NCBI RefSeq assembly: GCF_030372065.1
Contig: NZ_JAUDEA010000002.1
Span: forward strand, 62,001-126,000
DNA: 64,000 nt
Origin: Thermophilibacter provencensis
Lineage (GTDB): Bacteria > Actinomycetota > Coriobacteriia > Coriobacteriales > Atopobiaceae
Direction: 5' to 3'
Made by a program: the position numbers and the translations under genes. Of the stretch, positions 5,145 through 25,884 are shown one piece after another (positions within the stretch are counted from its first letter, which is position 1; each line of letters opens with the position of its first letter). Below the pieces are notes generated by a model that was given only the letters and a program-made list of their open reading frames with translations, searched no databases and was not told the origin of the DNA.

Positions 5145-6467
5145 CTAATTACTCTCGGAGTCATCGGCAGTCGCGGCATTCGCAGGCCCGCTCGTAAGGT
5201 CGTTTACCTGCGCAAGCGCACGGTTGAGCAAAACGGCGACCATCACCCACGTGAACACGGTGAGCAGCGCCTGAAGGACGGTGAACGAGTCCAGACCGGA
5301 CGCGTACTCGGCGGCTCCGGCGAGAAGTCCCTTGAGGCCAAGAACCGCAAAGAACGAGGCGTCCAGCATCGGGACGCCATCAAAGTCAATCACCCAGAGA
5401 ACGCGCACGGCAAGGATGAGACCCAAAAACCGCAGGAACGACTGTGAGGTGAGGCATGAGGGCTGAAGCCCCTCTCCTCTGTCGCACAGGGCGAGCGCGC
5501 CGCCAAGGATGGCACACGTTACCACATGCCCGCCAAGCGCCTGCATCGCAAGCACGAGACCCTGCATGCCCATTGCGGAAAAGAGCTCGCTGATCGAGAT
5601 TTCATGAAACGCCACGAGCGACATAATCTTGCCGAGCCCGTCAAACAGCGAGAAGCCCGCGCCCACCGCGGCTCCCACGAGCATGCCGGAGAAGACGTAG
5701 TTCCTGTGCGGCAGACGGCTCATGAAGACGTAGATGAGGGCAGCCTGGGCAAGCGTTGAGATGACTGAGCTCAGGATCGCACCGAAGGCGCCGAAGCTGC
5801 TGGAGAGGGACTCGACCAGCGTGACCACGAGCTGGGAGAACGCCCCGCCCACGAAGAGGATGCCCAGGACCGCCGCGAGGCTCAGGTTTCTTGGGGCGTT
5901 AGTCTCGAAAAAGAAGGTCAGCACCGTCACGTTGACGATGAGGACCGACATCAGCATGAACCCGGCAAAGCCGGCGTAGTAGCTCGCGTGCGCCCCGGAT
6001 CCGTTGACAACGAGGTACGAGATGCCCCAGAAGCACGCCAGCGAGACAAGAAGGACCAGGAACACACGAGAGTAGAGCCACGGGTGCGGCCACTCGCGCG
6101 AAATCTCCGAGATCGACGGCGTAGTCGTTGGCCCGCCACAGGCGAAGAGCTCCTCCGCCTCCTCTCGGCCGTGGTGCTTGAGCACCCGATCAAAGAAGTC
6201 AGCAAAGCGCAGGTCCACATGGCCGGTTCCACCGGCGATCTCGTTCAGCTTGTCGGCCGCCTGGCCCACGGCGTGCGTGGCGGCATCGGCAACGTTGCGC
6301 GCAACCTGCGACGCCGTCCGGACGACGTCAACGCTGTTGGGCTGGGACGATGCCCCCTCGTCAAACGCCGCCGACCCCGCGGGCCTATCTTCGCCCTGCT
6401 CGACACCGCACTTGGGGCAGCGATCCGCGTCCTCGGGAACCTCACTCCCGCACGTCTTACAGAACAT
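5145..6467 (-). CDS. Zinc-ribbon membrane protein with PrsW-like core
   Basis: A 440-aa protein. Residues 2-20 form a four-cysteine zinc ribbon (CKTCG ... CPKCG). A polar linker containing QAADKLNEIAGG follows, then about eight predicted membrane helices from roughly residue 155. The helix pair NYVFSGMLVGAAVGAGFSLFD and GGHVVTCAILGGAL resembles the PrsW protease family (usually ...GxxxGxGFAxxEN and HxxWxxxxGGAL). The expected catalytic Glu-Glu and Glu-Asn residues are replaced here, so it may be an inactive relative. The reading frame stays open upstream across rpmF, but the cysteine ribbon begins exactly at the ATG at 6467, which has AGGTGAGAG upstream. PrsW assignment is tentative. Confidence 0.8.
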   Translation of the reverse strand: MFCKTCGSEVPEDADRCPKCGVEQGEDRPAGSAAFDEGASSQPNSVDVVRTASQVARNVADAATHAVGQAADKLNEIAGGTGHVDLRFADFFDRVLKHHGREEAEELFACGGPTTTPSISEISREWPHPWLYSRVFLVLLVSLACFWGISYLVVNGSGAHASYYAGFAGFMLMSVLIVNVTVLTFFFETNAPRNLSLAAVLGILFVGGAFSQLVVTLVESLSSSFGAFGAILSSVISTLAQAALIYVFMSRLPHRNYVFSGMLVGAAVGAGFSLFDGLGKIMSLVAFHEISISELFSAMGMQGLVLAMQALGGHVVTCAILGGALALCDRGEGLQPSCLTSQSFLRFLGLILAVRVLWVIDFDGVPMLDASFFAVLGLKGLLAGAAEYASGLDSFTVLQALLTVFTWVMVAVLLNRALAQVNDLTSGPANAATADDSESN

Positions 6468-14016: not shown

Positions 14017-14718
14017 CTACAGCTGACGCAGGGCGTCAATGAGGCCCGTCTTGGAGTCCGTCCGCTCGTCGCGCATCTTGATGACGCGCGCCGGCACGCC
14101 CGCCACCACGGCGCCCGCGGGAACGTCCTCAACGCAAACGGCACCCGCCGCCACAACGGCCCGCGCGCCCACGCGAACGCCCTCAAGCACCACGGCGTTG
14201 GCACCGATCATGACGTCGTCCTCAACGACAACGGGCGTCGCGCTCGCAGGCTCGACCACGCCGGCGAGCACCGTTCCTGCGCCAATATGGCAGCGCGCGC
14301 CCACCGTGGCGCGCCCGCCGAGCACGGCCCCCATGTCGATCATCGTGCCCTCGCCGATGACGGCACCGATGTTGATGACGGCACCCATCATGATGACGGC
14401 GTTGTCGCCAATCTCAACGTGCTCTCGAATGATGGCGCCGGGCTCAATGCGCGCGTTCACGCCGCGCACGTCGAGCAGGGGAACCGCGGAGTTGCGGCGA
14501 TCCGCCTCGATATCTAGGTACTCGATCTCATCGACGTGCTCCTTGACGATGGGCTCGAGCTCGGACCACTCGCCAAAGACGATCTTTCCGTCGCGCCCGC
14601 CATAGACGTGCGCACCGCCCCAGTCCCAGCGCATGCCGCTCTTCTCGCGAACATACAGCTTGACGGGCGTCTTCTTGGGCGCGCTGGCAATGAAGTCGAT
14701 GATCTCGTGGGCGTTCAA
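14017..14718 (-). CDS. dapH: Tetrahydrodipicolinate N-acetyltransferase
   Basis: Acetylates tetrahydrodipicolinate in the acetylase branch of diaminopimelate/lysine synthesis. The 233-aa protein has an N-terminal helical domain and a left-handed beta-helix of hexapeptide repeats from about residue 85 ([31 protein letters not shown]), ending with VPARVIKM. This wording fits DapH rather than succinylase DapD. The TTG start has AAAGGA eight bases upstream. It is the last gene of the riboswitch-led lysA-dapA-dapB-dapH group, separated from dapB by the 41-bp palindrome array. Confidence 0.93.
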
Positions 14719-14753
14719 AGGTGGTCCTTTCGTTAGTGGTTACCTACGCTTGC

Positions 14754-14937
14754 ACCCAGAACCATATCTGGGTGCCGGGCGTTCCCTCTGCCGTACCCAG
14801 AACCAGTTCTGGGCTCCGGGAACCCCCGCTGCCGCGCCCAAATCTGGATTTGGGTGGCCTAAGGGGCCCTTGTTGCACCCAGAACCGGATCTGGGTGCCC
14901 AGCAGGGCCCTTGCCGTACCCAGAACCGGTTCTGGGT
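14754..14937. repeat. Array of five 20-bp palindromes at exact 41-bp pitch
   Basis: Palindromes begin at 14754, 14795, 14836, 14877 and 14918, each 20 bp, with 21-bp partly conserved spacers. The last is a perfect palindrome, ACCCAGAACCGGTTCTGGGT. The third, GCCCAAATCTGGATTTGGGT, differs in both arms yet keeps its symmetry. The array fills the dapB-dapH gap. No function known to me. Confidence 0.95.
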
Positions 14938-14960
14938 ACGGCAAAGCGGGCGTTACGCAA

Positions 14961-15698
14961 TCACGCAAACATCAGCGTGTCAAAGTCATAGTAGCCTGCG
15001 GGGCGCCCGAGCAGACGCGTCGCCGCGGCAACGGCACCTGACACGAAGATCTGCCGACTCGCGGCGCGATGCGTGAGGCAGACCTCCTCGTCGGTGCCAA
15101 AGAAGTGCACCTCGTGCGTTCCGGCAACGGTGCCTCCGCGGACGGCGTGCATGCCTATCTCGCCGAGAACGCGCGCACCAACGATGCCCTCACGACCGCT
15201 CACCACGGGCCGCTCCCCCGCCGGGTCAACCGCGGCGAGAAGCGCCTTGGCGGTGCCGCTCGGGGCGTCGGCCTTCTGATTGTGGTGCGTCTCCACGATC
15301 TCCACGTCCCAGCCGGGCAGGGCGTCGGCGACGAGGCGAGTGGCATGGCGCAGAGCCGCGACGCCAAGCGAGTAGTTAGACGACCAGACCACGCGGTTCT
15401 TCTCGCCAAGCGCCCTGAGCTCGTCCAGCTGCTCGGGCGTGTAGCCCGTCGCGCCGCTCACGAGGGCCGCGCCGGTGCGCCGCACGTAGGCGGCGACGTG
15501 CGGGAGCGCCGCGGGGGCCGAGAAGTCCACGATGAGGTCGGCCGCTGGCGCGACCTCGTCCAGGCTGTCGATGTTGTCCACGTCGTAGGAGCCGGTCACG
15601 TCAAACCCCGCATCGAGAAGGGCCTCGCGCACGAGACGACCCATGCGGCCGCTGCCGCCAACGACGATCGCGCTTCTCGCGGCGTTTGCGCTAGCCAA
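14961..15698 (-). CDS. dapB: 4-hydroxy-tetrahydrodipicolinate reductase
   Basis: Reduces the DapA product to tetrahydrodipicolinate with NAD(P)H. The 245-aa protein has the nucleotide-binding loop VVGGSGRMGRLV near its start, DFSAPAAL, SGATGYTPEQ, the substrate motif ETHHNQKADAPSGTAKAL, and VHFFGTDEEVCLTHRA at the C-terminus. A longer frame to 15746 exists, but the TTG at 15698 begins right before the dinucleotide fold, has AAGGGGG nearby, and overlaps the dapA stop by eight bases. Confidence 0.94.
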   Translation of the reverse strand: MASANAARSAIVVGGSGRMGRLVREALLDAGFDVTGSYDVDNIDSLDEVAPAADLIVDFSAPAALPHVAAYVRRTGAALVSGATGYTPEQLDELRALGEKNRVVWSSNYSLGVAALRHATRLVADALPGWDVEIVETHHNQKADAPSGTAKALLAAVDPAGERPVVSGREGIVGARVLGEIGMHAVRGGTVAGTHEVHFFGTDEEVCLTHRAASRQIFVSGAVAAATRLLGRPAGYYDFDTLMFA

Positions 15699-16581
15699 GG
15701 AGACCAGCCCCCTTAAGCGCGGAGACGACGCGCTCGCGGCCGGCATCGGAGATCTGCCAGAGCGGCTGGCGATAGTGCTCGCCGATCATGCCCATCTCGG
15801 CGAGGGCGCACTTGACCGGGATCGGGTTCACCTCACAGAAGAGGGCGTGGATGAGCTCGAGGTTGTCCAGCTGGGCGCGGCGCGCCGCCTCGACGTTGCC
15901 GGCGAGGAAGTCCGCGCACATCTGGTGCACCGTGGCCGGCGCAACATCGGCCCAGACAGAGATGACGCCCTTGGCGCCGAGGCTCATGAGCGGCACGACG
16001 ATGTCGTCGTTACCGGAGAACATGCGGAAGTCGTCGGAGAGGTAGCGCGCGGCCATCGTTGCGTAGCTGATGGAGCCGGAGGCCTCCTTGAGGCCCCACG
16101 CGTTAGGGTGGACGGCCAGACGAGCAAGGTTCTTCTCGCTGATGGAGCAGCCCGTGCGACCGGGGATGTTGTAGAGGATGCAGGGCACGTCCACCTTGTC
16201 CAGGACGGCGGTGAAGTGGCGGTAGATGCCCTCCTCGTTGGACTTGTTGTAGTAGGGCGTGATGAGGAGAAGCCCGTCCACCCCAAGGCGCACGAGGCCG
16301 GCGGCCTTGCGCTCGGACTCAAAGGTGGCGTTGGAGCCGGCTCCGCCGATCACGGGCACGCGCCCGGCCACGCGCTCCACCACGCAGCGGGCGACCTCGT
16401 AATCCTCATCGTCGGTCATCGTGGACGACTCGCCGGTGGTCCCGAGCACCAGGATGCCGTCGGTGCCGTTTGCCAGGTGAAAGTCCACGAGGCGCTCGAG
16501 CGCGGGGTAGTCAACGGAGCCGTCCTCGCAAAACGGCGTCACGAGAGCGACGATCGAGCCAGTCAGGTTAGTCATGTCCAT
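15691..16581 (-). CDS. dapA: 4-hydroxy-tetrahydrodipicolinate synthase
   Basis: Condenses pyruvate with aspartate semialdehyde, the entry step to diaminopimelate. The 296-aa TIM-barrel protein shows GTDGILVLGTTGESSTM, TPYYNKSNEEG, YNIPGRTG (the catalytic Tyr) and GLKEASGS (the Schiff-base Lys). Two ATGs, at 16581 and 16575, are possible; the first is better spaced from AAAGGTG. It lies just downstream of lysA, with a GGGACAGTCCC palindrome in the gap, and overlaps dapB. Confidence 0.97.
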   Translation of the reverse strand: MDMTNLTGSIVALVTPFCEDGSVDYPALERLVDFHLANGTDGILVLGTTGESSTMTDDEDYEVARCVVERVAGRVPVIGGAGSNATFESERKAAGLVRLGVDGLLLITPYYNKSNEEGIYRHFTAVLDKVDVPCILYNIPGRTGCSISEKNLARLAVHPNAWGLKEASGSISYATMAARYLSDDFRMFSGNDDIVVPLMSLGAKGVISVWADVAPATVHQMCADFLAGNVEAARRAQLDNLELIHALFCEVNPIPVKCALAEMGMIGEHYRQPLWQISDAGRERVVSALKGAGLLG

Positions 16582-19354: not shown

Positions 19355-21136
19355 CTACGAGGCGCTCACCCCGTACCAGGCCACGCCCTCGCCCCTCCAG
19401 CCAAGCTTGACCAGAGCGTCGTTTTCTTCTTTGCTCGTCGTGTAGTTATGTGTGCCGATGGTCGCGAAGGGGTTGAACTGCCTATAGAGAGGCACGCCGT
19501 TCTTGGCGTCGGCTGAGTACCAGCCAATGCCCTCCTGGGACCAGCCGAGCGCCGCAAGCGCGTCGTACTCCTCCTCGCTCATGGTGTAGTGGTGGTCGTC
19601 GGCATACGGGTTGAACAGGCGATAGACCGCCGTGCCACTTGTGGGGGCCACCCAGCCAACGCCCTCGCCCGTCCATCCTATGCCAACGAGCAGGTCGCGC
19701 TCCTCTGCGGACGCGGTATAGAAGTGCTCGCCCGTGTACCGATTGTAGAGGCGCCACATAGTCTGGGTCTTTGCCGCGGGAGCGTCATCGACGGGCTTTT
19801 CGGGCTCAGACCCGTCGTCGGGCTTGAGAGCGTCATCGGGATCAGACCCATCGTCGGGCTTGGGGGTGTCGTCGGGCTTGGGGGTGTCCTCAGAGCCCTG
19901 GTCGCCATCCGGAGCCGGCGGCTCTTCCGCCCCATCGTAGGGCTTCCCCGCAATGAGCAGATAGTCCTTAGGGTAGAGCTCAGCGGTTTGCGAATCATAC
20001 AGGTAGGAAACCGTATCAAAGCCAATGTGGAAACTGTAGGAATACGGATGCGCGTTACCCAAAGCGGCGTCATAGCTTGCCAGAAAGAGACCGCCGTCCT
20101 GTCCCACAGAGCCCTTGTCGCTGTTAGTGACGTCCACGAGATAGCTCTGCCCGTCATCGAGCCTCACCACGTTCCACATGTGCGGTCCGGCTCCTGTGCC
20201 ACCCGCCATGGAGCCCGAGACCGTGATGCAGCGAAGCAGGGTGCTCGTAAAGTCCGACTCATCAAAAAGGTATTGAAAAGCCTTGGCGTAACCCTCGCAG
20301 ACAACATTGGTGCTCGGGTTTGCGTCAAAGACGCTCACGAGCTGCCAAGGATCGCCGTAGGGCGTCGATTCATCGAGCGCCGCAGCGGTGTCATAGCTTA
20401 CAAGCTCGCAAATCTCATTCTTGTATGAGACAAGCTTTTCATAGTCGGGCTCGTCGGCATGCTTGGCGACAATGCTCTTGGCGGTTGCAGCGGCACTCTG
20501 AGCCCTGCTCACGTCAGTGGAGTCAACGCAGTGCAAATCAGAAGACTTCTGATACTCAACGGCAACGGACATCTTTACCTGAGCGCTCACCGTGACGCTC
20601 TGCCCACTGGACGAAGTGCTTAAGTTGGTGGAATATCCACTGGTCTTATCGAACCAGTACAGCTCGTAGGGATGGTCGCTGAAGAGCGCCTCGAAGACGC
20701 GGCCATTGCCCAGAAAGCGGCTCATATAGAGGTCGAACGCAGCGTCACGGGCATCGCTCGACGAGGTAACGCCCAGCTCCGTAAACGTCCAGGTCTTTCC
20801 CGGCAGGGCAATGTTGTCGGTTCGCTCGCGCGATCCGGCCGCAATCTGAACAATCACGTCTTCCAGCACGTCGTACGTCTGCTTCTGCTCGTCGGTCAGC
20901 TGGTCGCGCCCACTCGTGGCAAAAAATGCGACCCGCTCATTCCCGTAGAAGAGACCGTTGACGTACCCGTCAAAGAGCTCAACGTTGTCAGGCAGCCCAC
21001 TGGCAACATCGGGGACGTTTTGAGAAACCTCACGTACGCACGCAGCCTCGGTAGCAGACGTGACGTTCGGAGCAACGAGCGACCCTACCACAACTGCCGC
21101 CGTAAGGAGCGCGGCGGTCAAAGCCCTTCTCGCCAT
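19355..21136 (-). CDS. Secreted transglutaminase-like protein with DUF5648 repeats
   Basis: A 593-aa exported protein. After a signal peptide comes an unassigned region, then a transglutaminase-like (papain-fold) domain with a plausible triad: Cys near residue 280 (TNVVCEGYAKAF), His near 319 (PHMWNVVRLDDG) and Asp near 335 (YLVDVTNSD). Bacterial members are usually proteases or amidases. An acidic, Pro-rich linker built from PKPDD/SDPDD units leads to three DUF5648 repeats (WRLYNRYTGEHFYT, YRLFNPYADDHHYT, YRQFNPFATIGTHNYT). The ATG at 21136 follows GGAGGA by seven bases. Its tail faces the DapL-type gene. Confidence 0.85.
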   Translation of the reverse strand: MARRALTAALLTAAVVVGSLVAPNVTSATEAACVREVSQNVPDVASGLPDNVELFDGYVNGLFYGNERVAFFATSGRDQLTDEQKQTYDVLEDVIVQIAAGSRERTDNIALPGKTWTFTELGVTSSSDARDAAFDLYMSRFLGNGRVFEALFSDHPYELYWFDKTSGYSTNLSTSSSGQSVTVSAQVKMSVAVEYQKSSDLHCVDSTDVSRAQSAAATAKSIVAKHADEPDYEKLVSYKNEICELVSYDTAAALDESTPYGDPWQLVSVFDANPSTNVVCEGYAKAFQYLFDESDFTSTLLRCITVSGSMAGGTGAGPHMWNVVRLDDGQSYLVDVTNSDKGSVGQDGGLFLASYDAALGNAHPYSYSFHIGFDTVSYLYDSQTAELYPKDYLLIAGKPYDGAEEPPAPDGDQGSEDTPKPDDTPKPDDGSDPDDALKPDDGSEPEKPVDDAPAAKTQTMWRLYNRYTGEHFYTASAEERDLLVGIGWTGEGVGWVAPTSGTAVYRLFNPYADDHHYTMSEEEYDALAALGWSQEGIGWYSADAKNGVPLYRQFNPFATIGTHNYTTSKEENDALVKLGWRGEGVAWYGVSAS

Positions 21137-23529: not shown

Positions 23530-25884
23530 TTACTTCGTGAACGGACGCGCGGCGCCCAAGACGGAGCCGGGCGCGTACATGCTTCCCACGCGAACGTTCG
23601 AGGCGAGGATGGTCGACTCGATAATCTGACCATTGCCCAGATAGATGGCAACATGGCCGTTGTAGTAGATGATGTCGCCGCGCTCGATCTGAGAGAGCGA
23701 GACGGGCTGGAAGGTCTGGTTGTTGCGCCAGGTGTTGGCAAAGCTGTGGTTCCAGTAGTACTTGCTGTAGGGGTTGTAGTCCCCGCCAGAGGCTCCCGTG
23801 AGGTCCATGCCGCAGGCGTAGAGCGCCTCCATCACAAGACCGGAGCAGTCGACCGTAGTGCCGGGACGACCGCAGTTGTTGTCCACCCATCGCGTGCCGG
23901 CACGCATGTACTCGTACGCAACGGAGATGAACGCCTCGATGCACTCCTCGCGCGTGGCGTCCGCGGAGATGATCGTGGGATGCACGTAGCTCCAGTAGGA
24001 GCCGTTGGCATACGAGGGCAGCGTCACGTTCTCGCTGGAGAGCGAGAGGCCCTTCCACTTGACCTGGTAGCCGGTCTTTGTGCACACGCCGTCCGAGCGG
24101 AAGTTGCGGATCACGCCATCGATGGTGCGCTTGCCGGTGGCCATGAGACCGCTAGAGGGGTCGAGGTAATAGGTTGCCCCACCGAGCGTGAGCCAGCCGC
24201 CTCGATAGAGGTTGCCCGAGCTCTCAAAGTAGTAGCGACCGCCGTCAATGTCCTTCCAGCCAATCGCCATGGCACCGGAGACGGTGTCAAGGTAGAGGCG
24301 CTTGCCCTCGGTGTCCCACCAGCCGCAGCGCTTGGTCGTTCCATCGTTCTCAAAGTAGTAGGTGAAGTCGGAGAGCTTCTGCCACCCTGTCTTGATCTTG
24401 CCGTCTTCGCCAAAGTAGTGCAGGGTACCGTCAACGTCGGTCACGCCGGTTGAGAGACGGCCCTTCTTGTCAAAGTGGTACTTCGTGCCGTCGATGGTCT
24501 TCCAACCGGTGGCATAGGTGCCGTCGCCGTTTCCGTAGAAGCGAGCGCCCTCGCTCTCGACCCATCCGGACTCGGAGGTGCTCGGCGCAACGGGACCGGT
24601 ATCAACGCCAAACCACGCCACGCCCTCGTAGAGCCAGCCTAGGGCAACGAGCGAGAGACGCTCGGCGGCATCGGACGTGTAGTGGTGAGTGCTGGAGAAG
24701 ACGTACGGGTTATAGAAGCGGAAGAGCTGCGTGCCGTCGTCATCAGCGCTGTACCAGGCAAGCTCCTCGCCCCTCCACCCAAGGGCGCAGAGGGCGTCGT
24801 ACTCCTTCTTGTCGGTGGTGTAGTGGTGGTCGCCACCAGGAGCATACGGGTTGAAGAGACGATAGACCGCCCTATCGGAGGTCTTCGGCGAGACCCACGC
24901 AACGCCCTCGTACTTCCAGCCAAGAGGAACCAGGGTGTCGCGCTCGGATGCAGAGGTCGAGAAGAGATGCTCGCCGGTGTAGGGGTTGTAGAGTCGGTAG
25001 AGCTCGATGGTCTCGACCTTCTCCTCAGCCCCCTCGGTCTCTGCGTCCTCCTCATTAGAGCCCCGCTCTGCCTTCGTCTCCTCAGAAGTCTCAACCTCGG
25101 CCTGAGGCTCAACATCAGCCTCAGCCTTCACCTGGGACTCAGAATCAACGTCCTCGTCATCGGCGGGAACGTTCTTGTCGGCAGACGAACCGGCTCCGCC
25201 ACGGGTGCCCTGAGCAAGCGGGTCAACCTGAAGCGGCTGAGACCCATCAGCCTCAGAAGGATCAGAGACAACGGTCTGATCGGTATCCAGGGAGGGCTCA
25301 GAGATTGAGACCTCAGGGGTCTCGACCACAACGGAAGACTCGTCACCATCAGAGGCCTTGGGGGTCTCATCCTCCTCAACGGTCTCCTGGTCTGCCTCGG
25401 AGTCCTCGTCGATCAGCGCATCACCGTCGCTAGCCTCAGCCTCAGGCTCCGCCTCGTCGGTGGCCAAGCCATCGCCCTCAGGAACCACGGACTCGTCAAC
25501 GAGCGAACCCTCAACCTCTGGAGTAATGTCAACGTCGCCCTCGGGGGTCTTCTCGCCCTCGGGGGTCTTCTCGCCCTCGGGGGTCTTCTCGCCCTCGGGG
25601 GTCTTCTCGCCCTCGGGGGTCACCTCAACGTCGTAGTCAGTCGGCGCCAGGGGGTCAGGTACCGCAGAGACGGCATCAGAGACAGCAGGCTCACTCGGAA
25701 GAACAACACCAGGCTCGTCACAGTCAGCCTCGGCCTCCGTCTCCCCCACCTCGAGGACAACGCCGTCGGCAACGTCACTCTGAGCGTTTGTCTCGGTTGC
25801 GCCCGCCGCTACCGGGCACAGCGCAAGGGTGCCGGCAACCAGGACCGACGCCGCAAGGGAGGGACCCTTTACCCTATCCAACAT
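23530..25884 (-). CDS. Secreted NlpC/P60 peptidoglycan hydrolase with DUF5648 and choline-binding-type repeats
   Basis: A 784-aa exported protein. Order of parts: signal peptide; a very acidic region of about 270 residues including five tandem TPEGEK/TPEGDV units; three DUF5648 repeats (LYRLYNPYTGEHLFS, YRLFNPYAPGGDHHYT, FRFYNPYVFSSTHHYT); seven or so aromatic glucan/choline-binding-type repeats (GWKTIDGTKYHFD, GWQKLSDFTYYFE and so on); and a C-terminal NlpC/P60 domain with Cys in VDCSGLVMEALY and His in GHVAIYLGNG. It probably cleaves peptide stems of peptidoglycan. GGGGAG precedes the ATG. It is followed by the L,D-transpeptidase gene with the same repeat types, so the two seem to share an ancestor for their binding regions. 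Confidence 0.9.
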   Translation of the reverse strand: MLDRVKGPSLAASVLVAGTLALCPVAAGATETNAQSDVADGVVLEVGETEAEADCDEPGVVLPSEPAVSDAVSAVPDPLAPTDYDVEVTPEGEKTPEGEKTPEGEKTPEGEKTPEGDVDITPEVEGSLVDESVVPEGDGLATDEAEPEAEASDGDALIDEDSEADQETVEEDETPKASDGDESSVVVETPEVSISEPSLDTDQTVVSDPSEADGSQPLQVDPLAQGTRGGAGSSADKNVPADDEDVDSESQVKAEADVEPQAEVETSEETKAERGSNEEDAETEGAEEKVETIELYRLYNPYTGEHLFSTSASERDTLVPLGWKYEGVAWVSPKTSDRAVYRLFNPYAPGGDHHYTTDKKEYDALCALGWRGEELAWYSADDDGTQLFRFYNPYVFSSTHHYTSDAAERLSLVALGWLYEGVAWFGVDTGPVAPSTSESGWVESEGARFYGNGDGTYATGWKTIDGTKYHFDKKGRLSTGVTDVDGTLHYFGEDGKIKTGWQKLSDFTYYFENDGTTKRCGWWDTEGKRLYLDTVSGAMAIGWKDIDGGRYYFESSGNLYRGGWLTLGGATYYLDPSSGLMATGKRTIDGVIRNFRSDGVCTKTGYQVKWKGLSLSSENVTLPSYANGSYWSYVHPTIISADATREECIEAFISVAYEYMRAGTRWVDNNCGRPGTTVDCSGLVMEALYACGMDLTGASGGDYNPYSKYYWNHSFANTWRNNQTFQPVSLSQIERGDIIYYNGHVAIYLGNGQIIESTILASNVRVGSMYAPGSVLGAARPFTK
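25536..25621. repeat. 18-bp tandem repeat encoding TPEGEK
   Basis: Nearly five identical copies of an 18-bp unit (core CGCCCTCGGGGGTCTTCT) within the acidic linker of the NlpC/P60 protein. Copies are identical at the DNA level, so this is a young minisatellite likely to vary in copy number. Confidence 0.9.

Follow-up and report, generated by a model that had tools for sequence, protein, structure and literature searches.

Why do five short palindromes stand at an exactly constant spacing between dapB and dapH of Thermophilibacter provencensis? The locus lies in a stretch of 64,000 nucleotides (contig NZ_JAUDEA010000002.1, positions 62,001 to 126,000; called "the window" hereafter, to which coordinates without a contig label refer), and an earlier note on this DNA had offered two answers, namely a cooperative protein-binding array or a run of RNA hairpins tuning the expression of dapH. 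The best reading of the comparisons presented here is that the palindromes may be dispersed, helically phased sites of a protein family, named below after its member L295, which would make them an analogue of the repetitive extragenic palindromic (REP) elements and their REP-associated tyrosine transposases (RAYTs), built around an unrelated protein. The window array would then be, with a probability of roughly 0.6, one among several non-coding copies, dispersed in the genome, of an array of cognate sites that belongs to an undescribed family of Vsr/PD-(D/E)XK-like proteins of about 370 amino acids (aa).

The array between dapB and dapH

The five units start at 14754, 14795, 14836, 14877 and 14918, which confirms both the positions and the unvarying period of 41 bp reported earlier. 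The array and its surroundings are as follows (ORF, open reading frame):

14754..14773, no strand: palindrome unit 1, ACCCAGAACCATATCTGGGT, the most degenerate
14795..14814, no strand: palindrome unit 2, ACCCAGAACCAGTTCTGGGC, two mismatched pairs
14836..14855, no strand: palindrome unit 3, GCCCAAATCTGGATTTGGGT, the alternative AAATC/GATTT form
14877..14896, no strand: palindrome unit 4, ACCCAGAACCGGATCTGGGT, one mismatched pair
14918..14937, no strand: palindrome unit 5, ACCCAGAACCGGTTCTGGGT, a perfect palindrome of 20 bp
14719..14960, no strand: dapB-dapH intergenic gap of 242 bp, holding the array; both neighbouring genes lie on the minus strand
14961..15746, minus strand: dapB (context), an ORF of 261 aa, named from the earlier note and a dapB search
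14017..14718, minus strand: dapH/dapD-type ORF (context), 233 aa, TTG start

The description of the units as five 20-bp palindromes holds for unit 5, which alone is perfect over this length and sits in a perfect palindrome of 34 bp (14911-14944); for the others symmetry had been overstated, as they contain 1-3 mismatched pairs (two each in units 2 and 3, one in unit 4, more than two in unit 1). Near-palindromes of 20 bp are not rare in this G+C-rich window (47, against 49-64 in shuffled sequence), and because they are so common the informative features are the common unit sequence and the pitch; four matches to the unit within three mismatches occur in the array, while 100 shuffles yielded none, which places the array well outside chance expectation. 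Unit 3 is indeed changed on both arms, with AAATC/GATTT in place of AGAAC/GTTCT. The compensating change proposed earlier does not have to be recent, because the same form is an established variant in other places, such as genome G017. The spacers are always 21 bp long and are mutually related, yet they are only 53% identical to each other, compared to 80% for the palindromes.

Further copies and a candidate partner gene

In the whole genome (2.23 Mb in 35 contigs) two further 41-bp arrays of the window palindrome were found, together with a degenerate cluster, and one of the arrays leads to a candidate partner gene:

C2:59430-59654: array of six units at 41 bp, in the rplX-rplE gap
C31:98644-98961: array of eight units, of which the first six keep the 41-bp pitch, in a divergent gap adjoining der
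C12:35918: degenerate cluster beside rimP/leuS
C31:97278-98396: partner gene L295, 373 aa, with its own 41-bp array of the window palindrome from 248 bp upstream

Since the same palindrome and pitch recur at these sites, the array is not specific to the dapB-dapH gap or to dapH. As in the window, the palindromes of the C2 and C31 arrays are more alike (87% and 81% identity) than their spacers (46% and 64%), the baseline for shuffled spacers of all three arrays being 26-32%; no insertion or deletion has altered the pitch within any of the three stretches. A second palindrome form, GCTCAAATCCGGATTTGAGC, is carried by elements about 205 bp long, their end palindromes lying 183-184 bp apart, and paired elements of fixed length with palindromic ends measure 104 bp in G002, 135 bp in G017 and 184 bp in G000. 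Collections of phages, plasmids and viral contigs contained no match, and an origin from a phage or plasmid was rejected on this ground.

The L295 family is present in 29 of the 31 genomes of the genus (E<=1e-20) and has at least 70 divergent members there. Relatives of L295 adjoin palindromes in G017 (on both sides), G009, G014, G008 and G021. The family alignment conserves the motifs SPxE...RKPD...V(D/E)YxGxxH...DxxR, whose order is that expected of Vsr-like PD-(D/E)XK nucleases. Five of 29 members weakly matched PF18741 (REase_MTES_1575), with a best E-value of 0.011, below the curated threshold; this Pfam family is described as having the fold of Vsr restriction endonucleases (REases) (PMC3710099). 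The Y1 transposase family PF01797 was not among the weak Pfam matches of these 29 members, and for three array-flanked members Pfam, NCBIfam and PADLOC gave no hit at all. In an order-wide search, a wider superfamily of the partner protein was detected in 245 of 299 Coriobacteriales genomes, often in many copies.

Private repeats around the gene family

Repeats were scored as two-sided when at least ten 11-mers were common to the 5' and 3' flanks of a gene. By this measure 48 of 70 family genes are flanked, compared to 1 of 27 dapH genes, none of 28 rplE genes and 5 of 125 random places; Y1 transposases, the positive control taken from the known REP-RAYT case and scored identically, gave 20 of 26, so the measure recovers what it should. 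The repeats in the rplX-rplE gap match those of family members in the same genome, with 161 common 12-mers against a mean of 34.8 and a maximum of 122 after permutation (0 of 5,000 permutations). Similarity between the proteins tracks similarity between their flanking repeats (Spearman 0.32; 0 of 500 permutations), part of this correlation reflecting common synteny among close orthologues. The consensus units themselves vary widely and are mostly non-palindromic outside the clade of the window gene: the repeat is a palindrome at L295 and L296, which belong to this clade, and not at most others (for example L327, L347, L318 and L333). The sequences show the family to be associated with repeats that are matched to the species.

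The same matching is seen between orthologous loci. By a search with dapB the window falls among Atopobiaceae of the Olsenella/Thermophilibacter type. The dapB-dapH palindromes of G000 and G022 are each species' own version. One locus, flanked by a DUF512-type radical-SAM gene and by der (as named from the sequences), holds orthologous genes in G000 and G022; these are 67% identical, and the arrays upstream of them differ in their arms, ACCCAGAACCGGTTCTGGGT in G000 and GACTCATTTCCGGAAATGAGTC in G022. As the sequences show, the arms of orthologous arrays have changed in concert, with symmetry kept. Other relatives have different palindromes or hairpins in the dapB-dapH and rplX-rplE gaps, and in about a dozen of the 31 genomes the dapB-dapH gap is bare (24-28 bp). 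Neighbouring CCGG palindromes are frequently spaced by 30-31, 41-42, 104, 135 or 184 bp. In G002 (loci L243-L258), CGCACAATTCCGGAATTGTGCG palindromes lie mostly 104 bp apart, with an interior that is variable around a conserved CCAGTTGAGGTTCTTCTCG core.

Absence of the array from close relatives had been named as what would refute the earlier reading, and taken literally it is what the sister genome G009 presents: its dapB-dapH gap contains no array, only one decayed unit. But G009 (a fragmented assembly, 90% complete) also has neither the L295 gene nor the arrays, and in G022, the next relative after it, the dapB-dapH and der loci each carry that species' own form of the site.

Pitch and helical phasing

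The commonest repeat distances around family genes are 41 bp (25 genes), 42 bp (12 genes) and 30 and 31 bp (7 genes each), together with their multiples; in the coding-sequence control the same distances were found in none to two. The dominant pitch is 29-31 or 40-42 bp in 30 of the 34 family genes with tandem arrays, and clustering at two pitches is firm. The sequences show a common pitch in repeats that otherwise differ.

Whether these pitches correspond to whole helical turns was asked with 25 representatives less than 65% identical (each 65%-identity group contributing a single gene, and each repeat needing two or more supporting pairs). In 23 of them the dominant pitch is near whole turns, the best period being 10.2 bp (0 of 3000 jittered sets); without the group at 40-43 bp the test still gave p=0.006. 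Both figures are to be read cautiously, this version of the test having been adopted after first results had been seen. Grouping the genes by common 12-mers into independent repeat families failed, as all joined into one group. Family members in other Atopobiaceae genera have pitches of 41, 31 and 21 bp; these were examined after the pattern had been seen. Whole-turn phasing is well supported but not proven.

Of the two answers in the earlier note, the phased array of protein-binding sites is therefore the one that is supported: divergent family members with differing repeats nevertheless return to pitches of about 31 and 41 bp, and symmetry is kept as the arms change.

Proposed explanation and points against it

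In the scheme we favour, each site would be bound by a dimer of an L295-family protein, and because the sites are about three or four helical turns apart, adjacent dimers would lie on one face of the DNA and might form a cooperative cluster. The copies in the dapB-dapH and rplX-rplE gaps would be secondary sites that have spread, perhaps via cutting and copying repair, and any effect of the array on dapH is probably incidental. Binding, the dimer, cleavage, nuclease activity and the route of spread are inferences here.

Several observations weigh against this scheme. Below the cut-off for a strong two-sided repeat are 22 of the 70 family genes, and L295, the parent gene of the window palindrome, has its array on the upstream side only. 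The absence of the gene from G009 depends on the incomplete assembly mentioned above, and in G002, an assembly 99% complete that holds no Y1 gene and no clade-1 partner gene, 30 CCGG palindromes are dispersed. The period test weakens to p=0.017 when genes are lumped by common 14-mers, and to p=0.18 when they are lumped at 60% identity with chance short repeats included; the pitches of family members are in any case not fully independent, because their ancestry is common. As to the protein, its putative nuclease nature is deduced from the motif and the sub-threshold Pfam match, a profile search of the PDB with the L295 family gave no credible match, and the structure model of three distant relatives had a mean predicted local distance difference test score (pLDDT) of 32 and was unusable.

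Alternative explanations

The alternative that survives best, though we consider it unlikely, is that of a neutral minisatellite or a decaying repeat resembling a miniature inverted-repeat transposable element (MITE); a single insertion would have multiplied by tandem duplication, no protein would be its partner and the neighbouring orphan gene would be a bystander. Tandem duplication does predict the relatedness of spacers within arrays (46-64% against 26-32% when shuffled), and both the single decayed unit in the sister species, where there is no array, and the fixed-length paired elements of G002, G017 and G000 (104, 135 and 184 bp) would suit it. It does not explain why palindromes are conserved far above equally old spacers with no pitch-changing insertion or deletion within arrays, why differing repeats have the same two pitches, or why the repeats are specifically tied to one gene family.

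Less probable still is the other answer of the earlier note, by which hairpins in the dapB-dapH transcript terminate, attenuate or stabilise RNA and so tune dapH. The genes on either side of the array share a strand, and its RNA is predicted to fold strongly (-140 kcal/mol, z-score -9.1), but any palindrome array would fold strongly. The same array is found in a divergent gap and between rplX and rplE, about a dozen relatives do without any array in the dapB-dapH gap, and most arrays of the system elsewhere are not palindromic, which disfavours RNA hairpins as the essential feature. In the window region no known RNA family scored as high as its gathering cut-off, and in nine other repeat loci only two ordinary tRNAs did, both in L244.

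Movement of REP-type elements, or of REP doublets forming hairpins (REPINs), by the genome's own RAYT (Y1) transposase is very improbable. Dispersed extragenic palindromes, pairs of fixed length and three Y1 genes in this genome speak for it. Each of these genes, L136, L137 and L138, has its own, different flanking repeats, and no core palindrome lies near 29 Y1 loci of relatives, so that a RAYT link is largely refuted by the other repeats which all these loci carry; further, the 30 palindromes of G002 exist in a genome without any Y1 gene.

An operator array of a conventional lysine or diaminopimelate regulator, for which dyad sites at constant pitch in the gap before dapH could be cited, is the least credible of all, and the lysine- or dapH-specific function once proposed is rejected, as copies of the array stand at ribosomal-protein genes (rplX-rplE) and upstream of the orphan gene by der, and as the array before dapH is not conserved across the genus, the gap being bare in about a dozen species.

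Comparison with known systems

In REP/RAYT systems a gene family is flanked by a private repeat which is also scattered in intergenic DNA; the ends of the repeat are more conserved than its constant-length spacers, symmetric compensating changes occur, and a genome may hold several divergent genes (PMC2817692, PMC3116915). The system of the L295 family has these gene-repeat features in common with REP elements, bacterial interspersed mosaic elements (BIMEs) and REPIN-RAYT pairs, including a flanked cognate gene (48 of 70, L295 itself on one side only) and dispersed copies matched to the genome. It differs in that its protein has a Vsr/PD-(D/E)XK-like motif and is not a Y1 transposase of the HUH type, that its sites follow each other in tandem with a pitch near 31 or 41 bp, that outside the clade of the window gene the repeat is mostly non-palindromic, that CCGG palindromes abound in a genome without Y1 genes, and that none of the five window units has a GTAG/GTGG head tetranucleotide next to it. 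With a partner other than a Y1 transposase, and a repeat that does not have to form a hairpin, the system would work like REP-RAYT without belonging to it.

With Vsr-like REases (PF18741) the family shares the order of the acidic, histidine and DxxR motifs and the weak profile match of 5 of 29 members, which stays below the curated threshold; accounts of the known Vsr-like proteins mention, to our knowledge, no flanking arrays of phased repeats. In parS-like clusters and iterons, sites recur at a helical pitch that suits cooperative binding. The arrays here would resemble such operator or partition sites in this respect, but are scattered among housekeeping genes, vary in sequence between species and have a nuclease-like partner. 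Arrays of clustered regularly interspaced short palindromic repeats (CRISPR) likewise consist of short palindromic repeats separated by spacers of unvarying length; here, by contrast, the spacers are related to each other (46-64%, against 26-32% when shuffled), the repeats vary and the clusters are small and dispersed. In the open-access literature no description of such a protein-and-repeat system was found.

Other repeated sequences

The most over-represented 7-mer in the window is CTTCTCG/CGAGAAG, with 115 copies in 64 kb against about 19 expected. On the sense strand of predicted genes it occurs 41 times, compared to 10.8 +/- 3.2 after synonymous shuffling, and it also forms the stems of many intergenic hairpins; it is possibly a chi-like or uptake-like word. 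After rplX, a long conserved hairpin, GGAGCCCCCGG...GAGAAGTGCGC...CTTCTC...CCGGGGGCTCC, is found in many relatives (L023 at about 5735-5800, L155-L182); it is terminator-like and directly precedes the variable repeat cassette. Perfect or near-perfect tandem repeats of 18 bp, probably coding, lie at 25535-25621 (4.8 copies) and 19800-19888 of the window, and the window as a whole holds the words ACCACTACA and CAACCCCTAC in 11-13 copies against about 0.1-0.5 expected, which suggests a repetitive gene.

Implications

Beyond this locus, the comparisons hint, at somewhat less than even odds, at an unrecognised class of repeats and proteins widespread in Atopobiaceae, in which fast-diversifying nuclease-like proteins of the Vsr fold would each bind their own phased array along one helical face and spread copies of it by cutting and templated repair, the specificity of the protein co-evolving with the repeat. 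For REP elements it is an old question what makes a cell retain a transposase-like gene that is non-mobile and present in a single copy, along with its repeats. If the proposal is true, partnerships of a gene and its private repeat would have arisen more than once, here with a protein unrelated to RAYT. The several divergent protein-repeat pairs per genome would offer a ready set for the co-evolution of DNA-binding specificity and sites, and the two common pitches would let cooperative binding in helical phase be tested directly. The proposal would also account for much of the otherwise puzzling repeat DNA found between genes in gut bacteria of the Olsenella/Thermophilibacter type.
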